34,152 bases of DNA from a virus, in the IMG/VR virus record IMGVR_UViG_3300046787_000037, positions 1 through 34,152 of that record; one strand, written 5' to 3'. Within the stretch, counting starts at the first letter, position 1. Each line of letters begins with the position of its first letter. Shown here piece after piece: positions 13,508 through 34,152 of this stretch. Under the pieces are notes generated by a model. It had not been told where the DNA came from and did no database searches. It saw only the letters and a list, made by a program, of their open reading frames with translations. A program made the translations under genes and the position numbers.

Positions 13508-13744
13508 TCAAAAATCCATGTCATCGTCTTTCGGCAAACCCTGGTATTCCTCTTTGGGTTTGGGTGTGTTCAGATAGGCCCAGCCGTTCCAGCCGCCATC
13601 CATTAAGGGAATATTGTCCAACTTCAACATTGGGCCATTCTTTGTTTCGATTACAGAGCCAATGGTTTGATAGCGGGACTTTTCCACACCATCTTTGTTT
13701 TTGTATTTTCCAGAAACAACGGTGATTTCGTACAGTTTAGACAT
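13508..13744 (-). CDS. Possible small SSB-like protein with acidic tip
   Basis: 78 residues. A beta-rich body (LYEITVVSGKYKNKDGVEKS, YQTIGSVIETKNGPMLKLDN, WNGWAYLNT) is followed by a short Pro/Lys linker and the C-terminal end KDDDMDF. That end closely resembles the acidic DDDIPF tip by which bacterial SSB recruits partner proteins. It lies directly after the exonuclease and ERF genes, where phages often place an SSB. It is shorter than a full OB-fold SSB, so the assignment is tentative. It overlaps the exonuclease gene by 8 bases. Confidence 0.6.
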   Translation of the reverse strand: MSKLYEITVVSGKYKNKDGVEKSRYQTIGSVIETKNGPMLKLDNIPLMDGGWNGWAYLNTPKPKEEYQGLPKDDDMDF

Positions 13745-14363
13745 TCTTGACTTTTATAAGTTTGGTGATTTTGTCATCCAGTTCGGCTAAGAATTGGACA
13801 ATTTCGGCTTCTATTTGTTTGATGAAAGCGTCATCCCGTGGGACACGTTTCACAAACAATTGAAGTTTGTGGGGTAGGCGATTGTCAAAGCTGACAAAAT
13901 CGCACCACTTACGCCCTGTGCAAGCCATCTGGAATTGCATCTGGGTGTTGTATTTGCCTGGCACAGTTTGACTGAGCAAAGTCTCAATGTGCGTGGCGGT
14001 GTTGGGGCATTTGATTTCTATTAGGCCATCATCGTTTACAAGGCCATCAGGGGACGCCCCAGCCATTTCAATTGACGGGTGAGGCACAAACCCCACTTCA
14101 TCAACCAAAACGTTCTGAGCGACTTCATACGACAGCCTGGCAAGCGGTTCTGTTTCTGTGCCATGCTGCATGGCAGCATTGGTAAACGTTTCACCTTTCT
14201 GGCCTGTTAAACGTTCGCACACCAGCTGCGCCATGTAATTGTCCCTGGTGGTTGAATAACCCGTTTTGGTTTTGGCGATAACGTCAGCCACACGGGAGGC
14301 CGTGACTTTGCCAATACGGGCCTCAAACCAGGCGTCTGTGCGTTGTTCAATTATTTCAATCAT
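13737..14363 (-). CDS. Lambda-exonuclease / YqaJ-family recombination nuclease
   Basis: 208 residues from the ATG at 14363, which has GAGGA about six bases upstream. A TTG four codons earlier is less likely. Motifs match the YqaJ viral recombinase fold: WFEARIGKVTASR near the N-terminus, MQHGTETEPLARL, GASPDGLV and LIEIKCPN. The predicted PD-(D/E)xK residues are D106, E116 and K118. Such enzymes resect double-stranded ends to give 3' single strands for a partner annealing protein, and the ERF-family gene lies just upstream. The pair forms a phage single-strand annealing recombination system. Confidence 0.92.
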   Translation of the reverse strand: MIEIIEQRTDAWFEARIGKVTASRVADVIAKTKTGYSTTRDNYMAQLVCERLTGQKGETFTNAAMQHGTETEPLARLSYEVAQNVLVDEVGFVPHPSIEMAGASPDGLVNDDGLIEIKCPNTATHIETLLSQTVPGKYNTQMQFQMACTGRKWCDFVSFDNRLPHKLQLFVKRVPRDDAFIKQIEAEIVQFLAELDDKITKLIKVKNV

Positions 14364-14619
14364 GTTTGTCCTCAAGTGCTGTTTCGGTAATGTGATCGAC
14401 TAAATATTGCAGCAATAAATGGGCAATATCTACGTCAGTATTTTTGACGTAAGCGTTGACCAGTTCCATACTTTCCTGAACGTCAGGCTCATTAGGTAAG
14501 CCACGTTCATCAAGTGAGCCACTTTCAAAAGGCGTGTATTCCAAATAACACACCAGGTCAACGCCCTCAATTTCGCATTCAAATTCAATCAACCCCTTGG
14601 GGCAAGCTGGCGTGTTCAT
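14356..14619 (-). CDS. Conserved small acidic protein (unknown)
   Basis: 87 residues, rich in Glu and Asp. The N-terminus (LIEFECEIEGVDLVCYLEYT) is beta-rich and the C-terminal half helical (VDIAHLLLQYLVDHITETAL). The start overlaps the ERF stop and the end overlaps the exonuclease start by 8 bases, so it is translated between the two partners of the recombination module. No family was recognised. A role as accessory or inhibitor in recombination is possible from position alone. Confidence 0.65.
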   Translation of the reverse strand: MNTPACPKGLIEFECEIEGVDLVCYLEYTPFESGSLDERGLPNEPDVQESMELVNAYVKNTDVDIAHLLLQYLVDHITETALEDKHD

Positions 14620-15176
14620 AGTTTGGCCTTTACTTTGTCTTTGGCTGCAATAACTTTTTTCTGCCAGTCTGCATCACCGTTGCAAGCTGCATAGGCGGCC
14701 TTGTAAGCGGCTTTTAAGCTGTCCTGGTCTGTTGATGCCTCAATAGCTGCCAAGTGATCTACCAGGGCGTTTTGATTGACTGAGGGTTTTTCAACAACCG
14801 TTTTGCGGCTGGCTGCGTTGCCATCATCGTCCTCTGGGGCTATGCCACAGGCCGCCATCAAACTGTAACGCCTGGCATAAGTCAAAGCCGAAGCGTAACC
14901 CTGCGGATCATGTTTGACAGCTGGAAAGTGAACAATCCCGCACTCCAGCATTTCGCCAGATTCGTGAACAAAGACAGTTTCAACCATTACACCGTTGGCG
15001 CAGTCATAGTTTTTCTGAAGTAAGAAAATGCCGTTATCGTTTAAAGCGTCTATAACGGCCTCAACGCAAGCGGATAGGTCAGCATAGCGTGAGCGAAAAT
15101 GCGGGTTTGTAGAGGTCTTTAAAGCTGGCCCAAACGCCTTTTGTGCTTTAACCAATGCCGTGGCTAGATTTTTCAT
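14616..15176 (-). CDS. erf: ERF-family single-strand annealing protein
   Basis: 186 residues from the ATG at 15176, preceded by AAAGGAAC. NLATALVKAQKAFGPALK, then NPHFRSRYADLSACVEAV, a beta stretch and ASALTYARRYSLMAACGI followed by an acidic EDDDGN are characteristic of the ERF superfamily typified by P22 Erf. These ring-forming proteins anneal complementary strands in phage recombination and genome circularisation. The C-terminal Ala/Lys-rich helices replace the second Erf domain. It partners the downstream exonuclease and SSB-like genes. Confidence 0.9.
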   Translation of the reverse strand: MKNLATALVKAQKAFGPALKTSTNPHFRSRYADLSACVEAVIDALNDNGIFLLQKNYDCANGVMVETVFVHESGEMLECGIVHFPAVKHDPQGYASALTYARRYSLMAACGIAPEDDDGNAASRKTVVEKPSVNQNALVDHLAAIEASTDQDSLKAAYKAAYAACNGDADWQKKVIAAKDKVKAKL

Positions 15177-15367
15177 GCTTGTTCCTTTGTAAGTTCCAAT
15201 TGGATTTGTTTCAGTTGATCTGAAGTGACGTTGATCAAATAGCAAAGGCTGCGGATTTTGGCTTGCAGCATTCCGACTTGAAAAGCCAGGCGATCCCGTG
15301 GGTCTTGGTTTTCGTAGATCGTGGCTGCTTGCTGGGCCACTTGCGTGATGATGTAATCTGCGTTCAT
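15173..15367 (-). CDS. Small helical protein (unknown)
   Basis: 64 residues with ATGA overlaps at both ends. Mostly helical, with a heptad-like C-terminal half (LQAKIRSLCYLINVTSDQLK) suggesting a coiled coil or oligomer. No recognised family. It is translated just ahead of the ERF gene. Confidence 0.6.
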   Translation of the reverse strand: MNADYIITQVAQQAATIYENQDPRDRLAFQVGMLQAKIRSLCYLINVTSDQLKQIQLELTKEQA

Positions 15368-16131: not shown

Positions 16132-16168
16132 CTTAATTTCCTTAAAAGACCCGTTAGGGCATGAATGA

Positions 16169-16198
16169 ATTGTAAGCCCACTTAACATGGGCTGTCAA
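16169..16198 (-). promoter_or_regulatory. Leftward promoter with operator-like element (third unit)
   Basis: On the minus strand TTGACA (16198-16193), an 18-base spacer and TACAAT (16174-16169) form a sigma70-type promoter. The spacer carries TTAAGTGGGCTTA, a variant of the TTAAG-N4-CTTAA operator. The leader after it (ATTCAT, CATGCCC, GGGTCTTTTAAGGA) is nearly the same as those of two other leftward units. Confidence 0.65.
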
Positions 16199-16207
16199 CA
16201 ATTTAAA

Positions 16208-16378
16208 TTATTTATTTTTGAAAGGGGAATTTGTTTTGAAGTTGTAACCCAGATTTTTTAATTCCTGGGTTGTGTCACTCAAACTCATTGCGTTGACTTG
16301 CTGAGTTGTGTAACCAAAGCCAATCAAAGCCTTGCGCTGGGCAACTGCCAAAGTAACCATCCAATTGCAATTCATCAT
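16208..16378 (-). CDS. Small protein (56 residues, unknown)
   Basis: 56 residues, beginning with a double Met. The start (16378, or 16375) has AAGGAAATAAAA upstream. The body is a helix (VTLAVAQRKALIGFGYTTQQ) and a short polar tail ending FKNK. No family was recognised. It sits alone between two copies of the conserved promoter and leader unit, so it is probably transcribed from its own regulated promoter. Confidence 0.6.
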   Translation of the reverse strand: MMNCNWMVTLAVAQRKALIGFGYTTQQVNAMSLSDTTQELKNLGYNFKTNSPFKNK

Positions 16379-16422
16379 TTTTATTTCCTTAAAAGACCCT
16401 GTGCGATTTGCTAGGGCATGAG

Positions 16423-16444
16423 TGAATTATAAGCCAACTTAACA
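16423..16444 (-). promoter_or_regulatory. Leftward promoter with operator-like element (second unit)
   Basis: On the minus strand a perfect TATAAT -10 box (16431-16426) directly follows GTTAAGTTGGCTTA, a near match to the operator. The -35 region is weak (TAGTTA at 17-base spacing). The transcribed leader has the same CATGCCC and GGGTCTTTTAAGGA blocks as the other two leftward units. Confidence 0.55.
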
Positions 16445-16451
16445 AGATTAA

Positions 16452-16763
16452 CTAGGTGAATTCCCTTAGATTTGCGTAAAAAGCAACACTTTCAGCAATT
16501 ATTTTGTCAATTTGCGCAATGACTGCCTGGTGTTGCGTGGTGATGGCCTTTTCTGTGGCTTTGCCGCTGGTGACAGCCCAGGTCATTTGATAATCTTTTG
16601 TTACGGTGAAGTAATACATCTCACCGTCTTTACGACTGCCCGTCACCGTTGTGGTGATCAGGCCGCTGCTGCGTTTCATTGTTGCAATTGCAATGCGGGT
16701 TTCATCGTCCAGCGCTGCCAGGGTCACAGCTTTCCAGCCGAATGGGGTTTTTGTAATTTGCAT
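16452..16763 (-). CDS. Small early protein (unknown)
   Basis: 103 residues. The start has AAAGGAAC upstream. The N-terminal part is beta-rich (GWKAVTLAALDDETRIAIAT, then MYYFTVTKDYQMTWAV) and the end is one helix (AVIAQIDKIIAESVAFYANL). No family was recognised. It is the third gene after the LPD29 protein and its stop lies just upstream of the second promoter unit. Confidence 0.65.
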   Translation of the reverse strand: MQITKTPFGWKAVTLAALDDETRIAIATMKRSSGLITTTVTGSRKDGEMYYFTVTKDYQMTWAVTSGKATEKAITTQHQAVIAQIDKIIAESVAFYANLREFT

Positions 16764-16774
16764 GATGTGTTCCT

Positions 16775-16978
16775 TTAAACGTTAGCAATTTTTTTTGCGT
16801 AAGCGACTGCCTGGTCAAACATGGTTGGCGGGTAAATTTTGGTTGCGACAATTTGTTCTGCGTCTGTGTCAATCAAAGTGACCGCATAACCTTTTTTCAC
16901 TTTGGTGACCAGGGCGCTGATGCCATACAAAACATTGACAAATGTTGCGTTTTCGGTGGATGTTTGAGAGATGATCAT
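16775..16978 (-). CDS. Small early protein (unknown)
   Basis: 67 residues. AAAGGAAC lies upstream of the start, directly after a strong GCAA-loop hairpin. Beta strands (ENATFVNVLYGISALVTKVK; GYAVTLIDTDAEQIVATKIY) are followed by a short helix (FDQAVAYAKKIANV). No family was recognised. It lies 11 bases upstream of the next early gene. Confidence 0.65.
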   Translation of the reverse strand: MIISQTSTENATFVNVLYGISALVTKVKKGYAVTLIDTDAEQIVATKIYPPTMFDQAVAYAKKIANV

Positions 16979-16991
16979 TTGTGTTCCTTTA

Positions 16992-17005
16992 GGGGCTTGC
17001 GCCCC
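16992..17005 (-). other. GNRA-loop hairpin before ribosome site
   Basis: On the minus strand GGGGC-GCAA-GCCCC forms a perfect 5-bp stem with a GCAA tetraloop. It lies between the stop of the LPD29 gene and the AAAGGAAC ribosome site of the next gene, with no T-run. Its position matches that of the TTCG hairpin at 15658-15671. Confidence 0.55.
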
Positions 17006-17011
17006 GTTGAT

Positions 17012-17557
17012 TTAAGCTGCCAGGCGTCCAACAGAATTAAAGCCGTAACCGTCATCACCTAAGAAGGCAACACGGGCCAATGTGGGGCTGGGTTGTGTCT
17101 CACAAAAACTGGTAGCAGCGACACGATCCATGATGCGTCTTTCGTTGTTGTAATCCATGAAGTCCGCAATGTAAGCGCCACGGTAACCGTCTTTGACAGC
17201 TGGCACTTGCAAACCGTAGTATTGGCAAGCCTCTTGCACAGCTGCTTGCATAACGTCCAGGGTCATTTCACGATTAACAAAAATGTAGTTAGCACCGAAG
17301 CTGGTTTCAACACCGTCCAAGCTGCTGTAGTTGTAACCTTGGTAATCGGTCATCCCGTCAAAGTAAGCGCCCTCAAACATTGCCACAACGTTTTTGACAG
17401 CAGCTGATGTTGGGCCGTTGACGTAACCAACGGTAATTGAAGCGCCCCCGCTGTAAACGCTAGAACGAACAGAAAACTTTACGCCAGGGAAAGATTCTCT
17501 GAGAGCAGCACGAACTAATTTTGCAGTCTCAGCGCAAGAAAGATATTGACTAGCCAT
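17012..17557 (-). CDS. LPD29-domain early protein
   Basis: 181 residues. The N-terminal ~70 residues (YLSCAETAKLVRAALRESFP; VKFSVRSSVYSGGASITVGY; then FEGAYFDGMTD) match the LPD29 domain. That domain is best known from polyvalent proteins that phages and conjugative elements send into new hosts. Here it is nearly alone. The C-terminal part (TLDVMQAAVQEACQYYGL; FMDYNNERRIMDRVAATSF) is unrecognised. It is the first gene of the leftward operon, with a strong AGGAG ribosome site and its own promoter. A host-takeover or counter-defence role is inferred from domain distribution and position. Confidence 0.75.
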   Translation of the reverse strand: MASQYLSCAETAKLVRAALRESFPGVKFSVRSSVYSGGASITVGYVNGPTSAAVKNVVAMFEGAYFDGMTDYQGYNYSSLDGVETSFGANYIFVNREMTLDVMQAAVQEACQYYGLQVPAVKDGYRGAYIADFMDYNNERRIMDRVAATSFCETQPSPTLARVAFLGDDGYGFNSVGRLAA

Positions 17558-17602
17558 TTTGATTTCTCCTTAAAAGACCCCGAAACGTCAGGGCATGGGT
17601 GA

Positions 17603-17631
17603 ATATTAAGCCAGCTTAACTATCATGTCAA
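17603..17631 (-). promoter_or_regulatory. Main leftward early promoter
   Basis: On the minus strand TTGACA (17631-17626), a 17-base spacer and TAATAT (17608-17603) form a near-consensus sigma70 promoter. A perfect TTAAG-N4-CTTAA element fills the spacer and overlaps the -10 box. The predicted start is near 17596, giving a leader of about 40 bases before the LPD29 gene. Confidence 0.75.
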
Positions 17632-17694
17632 ATGGTATTTATTAAGACCCCTTAAATTTGTCGGGTATTTGACTGTTTGAGTAAGTTGGCTTAA
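17606..17694. promoter_or_regulatory. Tripartite operator between divergent promoters
   Basis: Three copies of a 14-base element with arms TTAAG and CTTAA and a 4-base middle lie in this stretch: 17606-17619 (perfect), 17642-17655 (perfect, TTAAGACCCCTTAA) and 17681-17694 (GTAAG in one arm). Centres are 36 and 39 bases apart. The outer two sit in the spacers of the leftward and rightward promoters, and the middle one lies between them. This is the layout of lambdoid operators. The Cro-like product of the adjacent gene is the obvious candidate binder (inference). Confidence 0.65.
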
Positions 17695-17697
17695 TAT
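17669..17697 (+). promoter_or_regulatory. Rightward promoter of cro-like gene
   Basis: TTGACT (17669-17674), a 17-base spacer and TAATAT (17692-17697) form a near-consensus sigma70 promoter. The spacer carries GTAAGTTGGCTTAA, a one-mismatch operator copy. The ATG at 17704 begins seven bases after the -10 box, about where transcription should start. Confidence 0.75.
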
Positions 17698-17703
17698 GCA
17701 AAT

Positions 17704-17862
17704 ATGGATAAATTGCAAGCTATAAAAAACGCTGGTTCTGCCAAAGACCTGGCACAGCTGCTGGGAATAACTAGGGCAGCAATCAGCCAATGGGGTGACA
17801 AAGTTCCCCAGGCTAGGGTGTGGCAGCTAAAAGCGTTGCGGCCTGATTGGTTTATCGGTTAA
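17704..17862 (+). CDS. cro: Cro-like transcription regulator (52 residues), probably leaderless
   Basis: 52 residues with a single helix-turn-helix: SAKDLAQLLGITRAAISQWG at residues ~12-31, then VPQARVWQLKAL. This is the length and pattern of the P22 Cro family. There is no ribosome site upstream, and the ATG falls at the predicted transcription start, so the message is probably leaderless, as known for lambda cI from PRM. It is expected to bind the TTAAG-N4-CTTAA sites and tune both promoters. No CI/C2-type repressor was seen on the other side of the control region. Confidence 0.8.
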   Translation: MDKLQAIKNAGSAKDLAQLLGITRAAISQWGDKVPQARVWQLKALRPDWFIG

Positions 17863-17963: not shown

Positions 17964-18716
17964 ATGCACTATTACCAGTTTCACATTGGTGACTACAAAA
18001 GTCACACGCACCATCTTTCCTTGATGGAAGATTTGGCATACAGGCGTTTGCTAGATTTCTATTTTTTACATGAGCAACCAATCAAGCATAGAGACATTGC
18101 CCGTCAAATTGGTATGCGTGATCATGAAGAAGATGTGATGACCGTTTTAAATGAATTCTTTTTGTCCACACCTGAAGGCTTTGTAAATCCAAGGGCTGAC
18201 AAGGAAATCAAGCAATACAAAGAGTTTGCAGAAGCGGGTAAACGTGGGGCGGCTAAAAGGTGGTCAAAGCCCCCTCATGGGGAGGCTATTAGCCCCTCTA
18301 ATGCTACCCCAATAGCAACCAATAACCATAAACCATTAACCAATAACCAAGAGAAGAAACAACAGCGAGGCTCACGCCTCTCTCCAGATTTAAGTTTTCC
18401 AGATGAATGGTTTGATTTTTTGGTCAAAGAAAGACCAGAATTAAACGCACAACAAACATTTGCAAAATTTATGGATTACTGGATAGCCCAAGCAGGTCAG
18501 AAGGGTGTGAAACTGGATTGGTTTGCTACATGGCGTAATTGGGTCAGAAACACAACAGCACCAAAAACAAACTTTGCTGACATTGCCAGGGTCACAGTAC
18601 CATCAAAAAATTTGCCTGATCCCGCACTTGAGAAAATTAAAGCTGACGCAAAAAAGGCAGCGCCAATCCCATTAGATGTTTTGGTAAAAATGGCTGAGTT
18701 GAGGAAAAAGGCATGA
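17964..18716 (+). CDS. DUF1376 / YdaU-like phage replication protein
   Basis: 250 residues. The N-terminal 95 residues (YYQFHIGDYKSHTHHLSLME, DLAYRRLLDFYFLHEQPI, then GKRGAAKRWSK) match DUF1376, a winged-helix-type domain common in phage replication proteins that may act like lambda O at the origin. A variable Asn/Pro-rich linker follows. The C-terminal domain (FPDEWFDFLVKERPELNAQQ; AKFMDYWIAQAG; KLDWFATWRNWVRN) resembles DnaT/DnaD-like loader segments. No helicase or separate loader was recognised, so this is the best candidate replication initiator. Confidence 0.85.
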   Translation: MHYYQFHIGDYKSHTHHLSLMEDLAYRRLLDFYFLHEQPIKHRDIARQIGMRDHEEDVMTVLNEFFLSTPEGFVNPRADKEIKQYKEFAEAGKRGAAKRWSKPPHGEAISPSNATPIATNNHKPLTNNQEKKQQRGSRLSPDLSFPDEWFDFLVKERPELNAQQTFAKFMDYWIAQAGQKGVKLDWFATWRNWVRNTTAPKTNFADIARVTVPSKNLPDPALEKIKADAKKAAPIPLDVLVKMAELRKKA

Positions 18717-18949
18717 CACATCATGAAGCAAACAGAATTCTTGACAGAGCCAGAGAAGGCCAACAATTTAGCGAGTTTGTCATCCTCCGAGCGCTTGAAC
18801 TTACAGGAGACTATGAGGCACACCGAAGCCCTGGAATGGATAAAACGCTATCGCAAGAAAGCGCTGGAGGAGGGCAGGGGCGAGGCTCAATACTGGTGGC
18901 AGCAAACCCTGGCAGACATTGCCAAGAAGCGAGGCCAGGCAGCTGCTGA
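18713..18949 (+). CDS. Small phage protein overlapping the next gene
   Basis: 78 residues. The ATG is in an ATGA overlap with the replication gene stop and has GAGG upstream. The first ~38 residues (HHEANRILDRAREGQQFSEF; VILRALELTGDY) look like a conserved short phage helical module. The remaining ~40 residues are read out of frame through the following gene and have low-complexity composition, so the conserved part is probably only the first half. A frameshift or a lost stop codon near 18815 is possible. Confidence 0.55.
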   Translation: MTHHEANRILDRAREGQQFSEFVILRALELTGDYEAHRSPGMDKTLSQESAGGGQGRGSILVAANPGRHCQEARPGSC

Positions 18950-18992
18950 CGATCTGCGCAGACGCATGAACGAACAAAAGGACAAGAAATGA
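18813..18992 (+). CDS. Small helical protein (unknown)
   Basis: 59 residues from the ATG at 18813, which has AGGAG close upstream. A start at 18723 gives 89 residues but lacks a ribosome site and runs in an alternative frame through the upstream gene. The body is charged and helical (EALEWIKRYRKKALEEGRGE; WWQQTLADIAKKRGQAAADD; LRRRMNEQKDKK). Similar short proteins accompany phage replication genes, but the function is unknown. The end overlaps the RusA start by 4 bases. Confidence 0.65.
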   Translation: MRHTEALEWIKRYRKKALEEGRGEAQYWWQQTLADIAKKRGQAAADDLRRRMNEQKDKK

Positions 18993-19408
18993 TTTCAATC
19001 ATGTTTACCGTTTATGGTGAGCCAGTAGCCAAAGGCAGACCGAGGTTTTCAACCAGGGGAAAATTCCCCGTTGCATACACGCCACAAAAGACAAAAACCT
19101 ATGAATCTGAGGTTGCAATGATGGCAAAGGCTGCAATGGGTGCGTCAGAAGCCCTTGAAGGCCCGTTAGAGGCTTATATTTACATTACCTTTCCCGTCCC
19201 AGCGTCTTACTCAAAAAAACGCACAGAAGCCTGTTTAAAAGGTTTTGAACAACACACAAAAAAACCTGACCTGGATAACGTGGTCAAAGCAATCTGTGAT
19301 GGCATGGACAAAATTGTTTTTATGTCGGACGCACAAATAACGTCAATTCATGCCACAAAGGTTTATGGCGACATTGCTAAGGTTGAAGTCCTGGTGAGGC
19401 AAGTATGA
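18989..19408 (+). CDS. rusA: RusA-family Holliday junction resolvase
   Basis: 139 residues. The N-terminus (FTVYGEPVAKGRPRFS) and KKPDLDNVVKAICDGM followed by MSDAQI match RusA. The predicted catalytic residues D94, D96 and D114 and the conserved K100 keep the spacing of the family (D-x-D-x3-K, then D). RusA dimers cut four-way junctions made during recombination and replication, which would help resolve phage DNA before packaging. The start overlaps the preceding stop (ATGA) and the stop overlaps the glutaredoxin start. Confidence 0.92.
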   Translation: MISIMFTVYGEPVAKGRPRFSTRGKFPVAYTPQKTKTYESEVAMMAKAAMGASEALEGPLEAYIYITFPVPASYSKKRTEACLKGFEQHTKKPDLDNVVKAICDGMDKIVFMSDAQITSIHATKVYGDIAKVEVLVRQV

Positions 19409-19641
19409 ACATTTTTATTTACACAAAATCAAAATGCCCAAATTGCGTGGCTGCCAAACAATTGCTGAAATCAAAAGGTTTGCGGTTTATTGAAAATGAC
19501 ATGGACAAAGAAAGCGTCAGACAAGCGTTTAACTTTGCATACCCAGACGTAAAGCAAATGCCGCAAATTTTTATTGATGATCAAAGGATCGGTGGTTTGG
19601 CTGGCCTCCAGGCAGCGTTAAAGCAGCTGGAGGGCAAATGA
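19405..19641 (+). CDS. Glutaredoxin
   Basis: 78 residues, a complete minimal glutaredoxin: FIYTKSKCPNC at the N-terminus with active-site Cys11 and Cys14, the MPQIFID segment with the cis-Pro, and RIGGLAGLQ at the glutathione site. Phage glutaredoxins usually supply electrons to ribonucleotide reductase or keep protein thiols reduced. No ribonucleotide reductase gene is in the window, so it would serve a host enzyme. It overlaps its neighbours by 4 bases each. Confidence 0.9.
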   Translation: MNIFIYTKSKCPNCVAAKQLLKSKGLRFIENDMDKESVRQAFNFAYPDVKQMPQIFIDDQRIGGLAGLQAALKQLEGK

Positions 19642-20928: not shown

Positions 20929-21822
20929 ATGGCTGTCCAACTATCCTCCATGATGGGGATGGGACAGCCAGCCCCTGTAAGGGCGCAAGCGGTTGCCCCC
21001 GAACAAGCCCCTACAAACCCAATTGAGCAAGCGTATTTACAGCGCTTGATGCAAGCCTATCCTGAATTACTCCAGGAATATGCAGCCCATCCTGAATCAA
21101 AGGGTGGACGCATTATCAACACCGATGTAGCCAGGGAAATGTCTCCTGAGTACAGAGCAGACCGCACAAAGTCTGCTGACGTTCATGAGCCAGCCAGCGC
21201 TTTCATGAAAAAGGTGTATGCGGAAAAACTAGCCAGGCCCACACCCAAAGGCATGGACAACACCGTTGTCTTTAGTGCTGGTGGAACTGGTGCTGGTAAA
21301 ACCACAGCCTTGGATTTGTTGGAATCTGTCGATCCCGCCTTGAAACGGTCGGAAATGATCTATGACACCAACATGAACAAGTTTGAATCTGCCGACAAAA
21401 AGATCAAACAAGCCCTGGATGCAAAACGCAAGGTTCGTATTGTTTACACATACCGTGACCCAGCTGAAGCCCTGGAGTTTGGCGCATTAAGCCGAGCCAG
21501 CCGCATGGAAAAAGAAAAGGGTTCAGGCCGCACCGTACCAATTGAGGAACATCTAAAGACTCACATTGGCGCACGAAAGGTTATTCAGGAACTCCAAGAG
21601 AAGTACAAAAATAACCCCAGGGTAAACATTCAAATTGTTGATAACTCCAAAGGAAAAGGTAAGGCTATTGCAAGCCAGCTTGACAAGCTGCCTAAACTAG
21701 AGGAGAATGAAGTTCGTAGGAGGTTACATGACACGCTTGAACGAGTTAGAAGCAGCGGCATTGGCGGCAGGGAGAGAATCTCTGATGCCATCTACCGAGG
21801 CACATCAGGAAAAATTCGCTGA
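20929..21822 (+). CDS. Zeta-toxin-like P-loop kinase
   Basis: 297 residues. After a ~100-residue polar N-terminal region comes VVFSAGGTGAGKTTALDLLE with a Walker A motif at residues 118-125, then IYDTNMNKFESADKKIKQAL, IVYTYRDPAEALEFGALSRA and RTVPIEEHLKTH. The order matches the zeta-toxin fold, whose known members phosphorylate UDP-N-acetylglucosamine or related small molecules. There is no obvious ribosome site, so it may depend on translation of the gene three bases upstream. A 66-residue gene overlaps its 3' end. No epsilon/PezA-type antitoxin was recognised. A toxin, a nucleotide-salvage kinase or a virion-linked enzyme are all possible. Confidence 0.75.
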   Translation: MAVQLSSMMGMGQPAPVRAQAVAPEQAPTNPIEQAYLQRLMQAYPELLQEYAAHPESKGGRIINTDVAREMSPEYRADRTKSADVHEPASAFMKKVYAEKLARPTPKGMDNTVVFSAGGTGAGKTTALDLLESVDPALKRSEMIYDTNMNKFESADKKIKQALDAKRKVRIVYTYRDPAEALEFGALSRASRMEKEKGSGRTVPIEEHLKTHIGARKVIQELQEKYKNNPRVNIQIVDNSKGKGKAIASQLDKLPKLEENEVRRRLHDTLERVRSSGIGGRERISDAIYRGTSGKIR

Positions 21823-32777: not shown

Positions 32778-34152
32778 ATGGGAACTTTAGTCTTTCAGGC
32801 AACACTAGGCGGTGCGGTCAATATCATTGGCCCAAACATTGCCTCAACCATTAACTTTACCCTCCCAAGCGCTGATGGCTCAAGCGGTCAGACTTGGACA
32901 ACCAACGGCAGCGGGGTTTTGTCATTTGGAACGTTGGGAATTGGTGGTGGCGGTACAGGCCAAACAACTGCGACAGCTGCGTTTAATGCTTTAGCCCCTA
33001 GCCAAACGGGTAATTCAGGCAAATATCTGACCACAGACGGGACTAATACGTCTTGGGCAACAAATGCGGGTGGTGATGTAGTTGGCCCATCATCTGCAAC
33101 AGATAACGCCTTGGCACGTTTTGACACGACTACTGGCAAACTGATTCAGAATTCTGTTGGCATCTTAAGTGATGCGGGTGTGTTGACTGGCTTGACTGGC
33201 CTCACATCGTCTGGCTCAATCACTTTTTCAGGATTGACTTCTGGGCGTGTCACATACGCAAGCACAGGCGGTTTATTGACTGACTCAGCTAACTTGCTTT
33301 ATAGCGGTACTGACTTGACTGTTTATGGCGTAACTGTAGGCCGTGGTGCGGGTGCTGTATCTACCAATACTGCGGTGGGTGCTGGTGCTATAGCCGCAAC
33401 TGCTACTGGAATTAGAAACGTAGCTGTTGGTAATACTGCACTAACTGCTCTTACATCTGGAAATAATAATGTTGGAGTTGGTTTTCAAGCTGGAGCTGGA
33501 ATTACTTCTGGAAGCCAAAATATTGGACTTGGTAGTTTTGCACTTAGCTCAAACACAACTGCCAATAGCAATGTATCTATTGGTTATGCTTCACTTTTAT
33601 TCAACAGCACAGGATCTAACAATACTGCACTAGGCGACTCTGCCCTGTACTCCAACACCACAGCATCAAGCAACACCGCTGTAGGTTATCAGGCGGGGTA
33701 TAGCAACACTACAGGCGGCGTAACTGCTTTTGGTTATGGTGCTTTGTATGCCAACACCACAGCAACCGCCAATACAGCGGTAGGCTTGCAGGCTAGTTAT
33801 CAAAATACGACTGGCGCTTATAACGTTGCTCTTGGTCAGCAGACGCTTTACACCAGCACCACGGGTTCTAATAACACTGCACTTGGCTATGCCGCACTTT
33901 ACCTAAACACTACTGGATCCAACAACGTTGCTATTGGTGGACTTGGTGGTTCGGCTACTTCGTTAAACTCAAATACAACTGGCTCAAACAACGTGGCTGT
34001 TGGTAATGGGTCATTAGGGTTAAACACTACAGCATCTAACAACACGGCTGTAGGTTATCAGGCGGGGTATAGCAACACTACTGGTACAAATACTGTGGCA
34101 ATTGGCTATCAAGCAGGATTCAGTAATTCAACCAGTAACAACAATGTATTTA
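32778..34152 (+). CDS. Tail fibre, N-terminal part (continues at window start)
   Basis: The frame is open from the ATG at 32778 to the window end (458 codons) and continues in frame from base 2. The first ~190 residues are Gly/Thr/Ser-rich shaft (for example GGGGTGQTTATAAFNAL). From about residue 190 there are some 14-16 copies of a repeat near N-T-A-V-G-x-x-A-L-x-x-N-T-T-G-S-N, comparable to YadA-head beta-roll repeats. Some copies are almost identical in DNA (33677-33712 and 34048-34083). It ends in the S74 chaperone domain encoded at 452-754. This is the best candidate receptor-binding fibre. Confidence 0.88.
   Translation, partial: MGTLVFQATLGGAVNIIGPNIASTINFTLPSADGSSGQTWTTNGSGVLSFGTLGIGGGGTGQTTATAAFNALAPSQTGNSGKYLTTDGTNTSWATNAGGDVVGPSSATDNALARFDTTTGKLIQNSVGILSDAGVLTGLTGLTSSGSITFSGLTSGRVTYASTGGLLTDSANLLYSGTDLTVYGVTVGRGAGAVSTNTAVGAGAIAATATGIRNVAVGNTALTALTSGNNNVGVGFQAGAGITSGSQNIGLGSFALSSNTTANSNVSIGYASLLFNSTGSNNTALGDSALYSNTTASSNTAVGYQAGYSNTTGGVTAFGYGALYANTTATANTAVGLQASYQNTTGAYNVALGQQTLYTSTTGSNNTALGYAALYLNTTGSNNVAIGGLGGSATSLNSNTTGSNNVAVGNGSLGLNTTASNNTAVGYQAGYSNTTGTNTVAIGYQAGFSNSTSNNNVF
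33677..33712 (+). repeat. Internal copy of the terminal repeat sequence
   Basis: These 36 bases equal bases 1-36 of the window, and 34048-34083 matches from the third base onward. They encode an AVGYQAGYSNTT unit of the fibre repeat array. The near-identity of separate units suggests recent duplication or recombination, and it leaves the true unit number uncertain in assembly. Confidence 0.7.
34047..34152. repeat. Terminal overlap, right copy
   Basis: Identical to bases 2-107. In a circular genome one copy should be removed. The junction lies within the tail-fibre repeat array. Confidence 0.85.

Follow-up and report, generated by a model that had tools for sequence, protein, structure and literature searches.

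The intergenic region upstream of a small cro-like gene in IMG/VR record IMGVR_UViG_3300046787_000037 very probably controls the early genes of a P22-like phage in which no genes for lysogeny were detected, with Cro shutting the early promoters. The whole record, 34,152 bases long, was analysed and is referred to below as the window. The computational evidence comprises operator-like sites and the promoters that hold them, the family of the Cro protein, the layout of a regulon, the agreement of cro allele with operator type among relatives, and the lack of a detectable repressor or integrase.

P22-type portal and head-closure proteins, by which a phage is counted as P22-like, are both encoded in the window (profile matches P22_portal, 6e-166, and Hc3 head closure, 9e-96), together with terminase, ERF, YqaJ, RusA, NinB and a DUF1376 primosomal protein. 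The first leftward gene (17012-17557, minus strand) encodes a 181-aa LPD29-domain protein (Pfam LPD29, 4.4e-22), while the distal leftward genes (13737-15179, minus strand) include those for an ERF ssDNA-annealing protein (14616-15179) and a YqaJ exonuclease (13737-14375). Past cro, genes for the DUF1376/primosomal protein, an 89-aa protein and RusA run rightward (17964-19408, plus strand). A glutaredoxin gene is located at 19405-19641, between rusA and ninB, and a zeta-toxin-like kinase gene at 20929-21822, upstream of the terminase genes. The last 106 bases (34047-34152) are a copy of bases 2-107 and form a terminal direct repeat; the record may be complete, while IMG/VR classes it as linear and the repeat falls within a repetitive tail-fibre gene. 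Relatives of the phage are spread over many metagenomes; when the 14-kb region was compared at the nucleotide level with phage records, no match was obtained.

Three copies of a TTAAG-N4-CTTAA element, reported in the initial annotation at 17606, 17642 and 17681, are indeed present at steps of 36 and 39 bp, the first two being exact and the third carrying one mismatch. The OL1-like operator TTAAGCCAGCTTAA (17606-17619, minus strand) lies within the spacer and -10 box of the leftward promoter PL, the middle site TTAAGACCCCTTAA (17642-17655) follows 36 bp from it, and the OR operator GTAAGTTGGCTTAA (17681-17694, plus strand) lies within the spacer and -10 box of the rightward promoter PR. PL consists of TTGACA (17631-17626), 17 nt and TAATAT (17608-17603), with 10 of 12 consensus positions (17603-17631, minus strand), and PR of TTGACT (17669-17674), 17 nt and TAATAT (17692-17697), with 9 of 12 (17669-17697, plus strand). 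The earlier description of near-consensus divergent promoters with the outer sites in their spacers holds for the spacers and the -35 boxes, whereas the -10 boxes match at only four of six positions.

Two further sites, overlooked in the initial annotation, are located inside other leftward promoters: ATAAGCCAACTTAA (16429-16442, minus strand) overlaps a perfect -10 box, TATAAT (16431-16426), which is without a good -35 box, and GTAAGCCCACTTAA (16172-16185, minus strand) lies in a promoter composed of TTGACA (16198-16193), 18 nt and TACAAT (16174-16169). With these two distal sites inside further leftward promoters, the five sites form a regulon. A count over the window confirmed that the element is concentrated here and is not as common elsewhere: there are two exact matches, both within 17606-17655, against about 0.046 expected per record from base composition, and five matches with at most one mismatch, all within 16172-17694. 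A position weight matrix of the five sites found no further site near their score; as it was built from the same sites, the control is not this ranking but Markov simulation, in which at most 0.045 is expected. With two mismatches allowed the element is no commoner than chance (18 matches versus 14.4 expected) and the count is uninformative. A site-like sequence near 21670, TCAAGCTGGCTTGC, which recurs in relatives, was taken as coding, as it lies within the zeta-toxin-like gene.

The cro gene (17704-17862, plus strand) encodes a 52-aa protein of the Pfam P22_Cro family (PF14549; E 2.2e-12), scoring 47 bits, above the curated cut-off of 30.2. A PDB search retrieved P22 Cro (1rzs, E 5e-4), and the AlphaFold model (pLDDT 90, five predicted helices) has N15 Cro, P22 Cro and Xfaso 1 Cro as its nearest folds, with a TM score of 0.77 to both P22 Cro and N15 Cro; the Foldseek E-values are weak (0.07-0.1), the protein being short. 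Lambda Cro aligns with the model over 30 residues only. The model thus predicts an all-alpha, P22/N15-like Cro fold. P22 OL1 TTAAGACTTCTTAA and OR3 TTAAGTCATCTTAA are exact matches to TTAAG-N4-CTTAA, so protein family and operator agree, and by analogy with P22 the 52-aa Cro would bind the TTAAG-type operators. The operators had been called lambda-like; in view of the P22/N15-type operator sequence and fold match this reading was dropped, and we regard them as P22-type.

The proposal that Cro acts here without a partner repressor was borne out by the 21 records of 30-35 kb that were scanned, i.e. this record and 20 relatives: none of them contains a Peptidase_S24, tyrosine integrase or resolvase match, and each has exactly one P22_Cro match, which in one relative (G012) is below cut-off and has an internal stop. 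S24 domains were detected in the positive controls, P22 and Pseudomonas phage YA3. Neither a CI/C2 gene divergent from cro nor an integrase, as known from the switches of lambda and P22, was detected (0/21 each). The region had also been described as a Cro-only control switch, of which the Cro-only part stands; as it has no second repressor, however, negative feedback with early-gene shut-off is a more fitting description than a switch.

The locus might instead be the remnant of a lambdoid switch, with cI and integrase located in missing sequence or unrecognised and the operators shared by Cro and a repressor. We give this little probability. All nine inspected prophage loci with a related P22_Cro (L109, L111, L113, L114, L115, L120, L123, L127 and L157, a selection from bacterial genomes) carry a divergent repressor-like ORF, recognised by eye from the sequence and not by profile scan, and the operator of a Thiothrix prophage, TTAAGTTGGCTTAA, is identical to operators of the present phage group. 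Moreover, a repressor of an unrecognised family would escape detection, and the record, not being certified complete, could be incomplete. Against this stand the 21 records of 30-35 kb that consistently lack S24, tyrosine integrase and resolvase; below cut-off, HTH_3 recovered only the cro genes and, in this record, one weak match in a 639-aa protein of the structural block. In addition, the two close matches among 84,980 bacterial genomes come from short MAG contigs, which could themselves be of phage origin.

The three intergenic sites had been interpreted as a tripartite operator. Three sites are present, but a layout with a single site in each promoter and an OL2-like second site fits better. 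In the OR of lambda and P22 three sites follow at steps of about 20-25 bp across PR and PRM, while the steps here are 36 and 39 bp. Across relatives OL1 keeps its position in the PL spacer, and in most of them the start of the OR site precedes the cro ATG by exactly 23 bp. For the middle site, the distance from OL1 is in most relatives either 36-37 or 22 bp, that from OR is variable, and the P22 OL1-OL2 step is 35 bp; therefore the middle site (17642-17655) is, judging from these distances, best read as OL2 and not as part of an OR1-OR2-OR3 set. A true tripartite switch, in which an unseen leftward transcript would be governed from the middle site in the manner of OR3/PRM, is suggested by the presence of three sites in one intergenic region and by a -10-like TACAAA/TATAAA after the middle site in many relatives. 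It is nevertheless very improbable given the conserved spacing from OL1: a search for a promoter at the middle site found no well-placed -35 box, and Cro-B phages, from which the middle site is absent, manage without a third site.

The cro mRNA is predicted to be leaderless. The predicted +1 of PR, 17704, is the A of the cro ATG; transcription usually starts 7 nt past the -10 box, and in 45 of 46 unique Cro-A upstream regions the -10 box and the ATG are separated by 6 nt (5-8 nt in Cro-B). No Shine-Dalgarno sequence longer than 3 nt was found before cro in the Cro-A regions, and none longer than 4 nt when Cro-B is included. The leftward mRNAs, on the other side, are predicted to open with a covarying hairpin. 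The PL transcript leader (17567-17596, minus strand) has a 5' hairpin GCCCTGACGTTTCGGGGTC and a Shine-Dalgarno AAGGA, and the same module of hairpin and Shine-Dalgarno follows both the 16429 promoter (16386-16419, minus strand) and the 16172 promoter (GCCCTAACGGGTC; 16139-16162, minus strand). For the gene after the last of these the start codon is then ATG 16131, and the mechanical ORF, which opens at 16188, is too long. Among 53 different leader sequences the stems are CCC/GGG in 39, CCG/CGG in 10 and mixed in 4; as the regular expression used already demanded CC[CG] and [CG]GG, what is informative here is that the third base changes in a matched way. An Rfam search with the leader hairpin gave no match.

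The relatives fall into two classes. In the Cro-A group a TTAAG-type (A-type) site with at most two mismatches was found in 49/49 unique upstream regions (shuffled mean 0.15 per region), at least three such sites in 37 of the 49, and B-type sites in none. Cro-B is a different small HTH protein encoded at the same place, whose best Pfam match, YdaS, is below cut-off; its loci have relatives of ERF and YqaJ to the left and a leader hairpin as in Cro-A. A different palindrome, the B-type TCACA-N2-TGTGA, occurs upstream of Cro-B in 60 of 63 unique regions (at most two mismatches), with two copies in 53/63 and three in 0/63 at two mismatches, i.e. one per promoter. None of the 63 has an A-type site at one mismatch or fewer, and at two mismatches a single site appears in five, below the shuffled mean. 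Many Cro-B phages (L233-L312), and also L102, have a conserved element like TAGGTACTTTCCCTAAT between their divergent promoters, and one 33-kb record (IMGVR 3300020042_004684) holds two Cro-B copies, L239 and L263.

The distal leftward modules follow the same pattern. Of 57 Cro-A loci, 54 have an A-type module (two mismatches) and none a B-type one. Of 71 Cro-B loci, 17 have a B-type module and, at two mismatches, none an A-type one; in the other 54 of the 71 no distal module was recognised. When the limit was relaxed to three mismatches, A-like matches appeared in seven Cro-B loci, which look like chance, being located within coding sequence or beside a hairpin of another kind. In strict counts of these sequences the association of cro allele and operator is thus complete, while the independent events are few. 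The ERF tree separates the A and B alleles by one split and one change (support 80/63, weak), and a quick YqaJ tree contains five A/B changes, of which at least two are forced; with so few allele changes, much of the count reflects common ancestry. We can only tentatively propose, and would rather doubt than expect, that the group has a Cro-only regulon with exchangeable specificity classes, i.e. two Cro/operator pairings in one phage group, with the divergent promoters and the recognisable distal operators matching the allele. If true, this would provide an immunity-like specificity without lysogeny, e.g. favouring the first infecting phage over co-infectors with the same Cro.

That the reader of the palindromes is a host regulator and not the adjacent Cro-like protein, or that they are simply promoter architecture, is scarcely credible: the half-site TTAA overlaps the -10 box and its conservation is partly promoter conservation, but the middle site is conserved although it lies outside PL and PR, the operator type differs wholly between Cro-A and Cro-B despite related neighbours and the same leader hairpin, and P22's own operators have the same sequence.

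Returning to Cro as the reader of these sites, and taking its binding, repression and timing from P22 and lambda, we infer the following course of events. Host RNA polymerase would initiate at PL, at the two further leftward promoters and at PR, the last giving a leaderless mRNA with cro as its first gene. Cro, a small all-alpha protein of the P22 type and presumably a dimer, would bind the TTAAG-N4-CTTAA palindromes inside the promoters and thereby exclude RNA polymerase. As it accumulates, it would shut PR, which constitutes negative feedback on cro and on the replication genes behind it, as well as the distal leftward promoters and, aided by the OL2-like site, PL. The early genes would in this way be turned down ahead of late growth in a purely lytic infection, and Cro, without a CI/C2 partner, would do only the late-lytic job known for it from lambda and P22. 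As no second repressor was found, no stable lysogenic state is expected.

Work on the Cro proteins of lambda and P22 has dealt almost exclusively with their part in a bistable switch, of which they form one half. The present phages, a widespread group that keeps Cro and its operators at several early promoters, with no CI or integrase found, offer a natural test of what Cro does alone, and the two Cro classes with matching operator sets a ready-made test of repressor-operator co-evolution. No clear precedent for a Cro-only virulent phage emerged from the part of the literature sampled, which supports such an absence weakly. SA97 was considered and rejected, being without both CI and Cro.

Among known systems, Salmonella phage P22 shares with the present phage the TTAAG half-site with an N4 centre, the P22_Cro family, an OL1 overlapping PL, an OL1-OL2 step of 35-36 bp, an erf-type recombinase, ninB and the P22-like portal. 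The two differ in that here no c2 lies between PL and PR (in P22 it is located on the side held here by the LPD29 gene, the leftward neighbour of cro), no integrase was found, PR has a single site, and there are extra leftward operators; cro is predicted to be leaderless, whereas P22 cro starts about 30 nt past the annotated PR end. In lambda, where cro is the first gene of PR, operators within divergent early promoters likewise block them, but the operator sequence is different, the fold of lambda Cro differs (poor match), and a CI is lacking here.

A leaderless cro mRNA was mapped by RACE in immB of the telomere phage PY54, which is temperate with a cI and whose Cro has a single binding site, near cI, and is not regarded as self-repressing (PMC4488713). 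N15, whose Cro is the best fold match of our model, is related to PY54. In Pantoea phage PdC23 and the spring-water phages MW202520 and MW202462, too, the gene for a Cro-like protein or small regulator lacks an annotated repressor gene as its neighbour, so this arrangement is not unique to the group. MW202520 has four one-mismatch TTAAG-N4-CTTAA sites in 12 kb; near cro the element was not found in PdC23 or MW202462, and the Cro relative of PdC23, having no adjacent TTAAG site, indicates that outside the group Cro and the element do not always occur together. The parts of the system are known, and it is their combination that makes it a variant: neither CI nor integrase was found, there are several leftward operators, and each of the two Cro classes has operators of its own.
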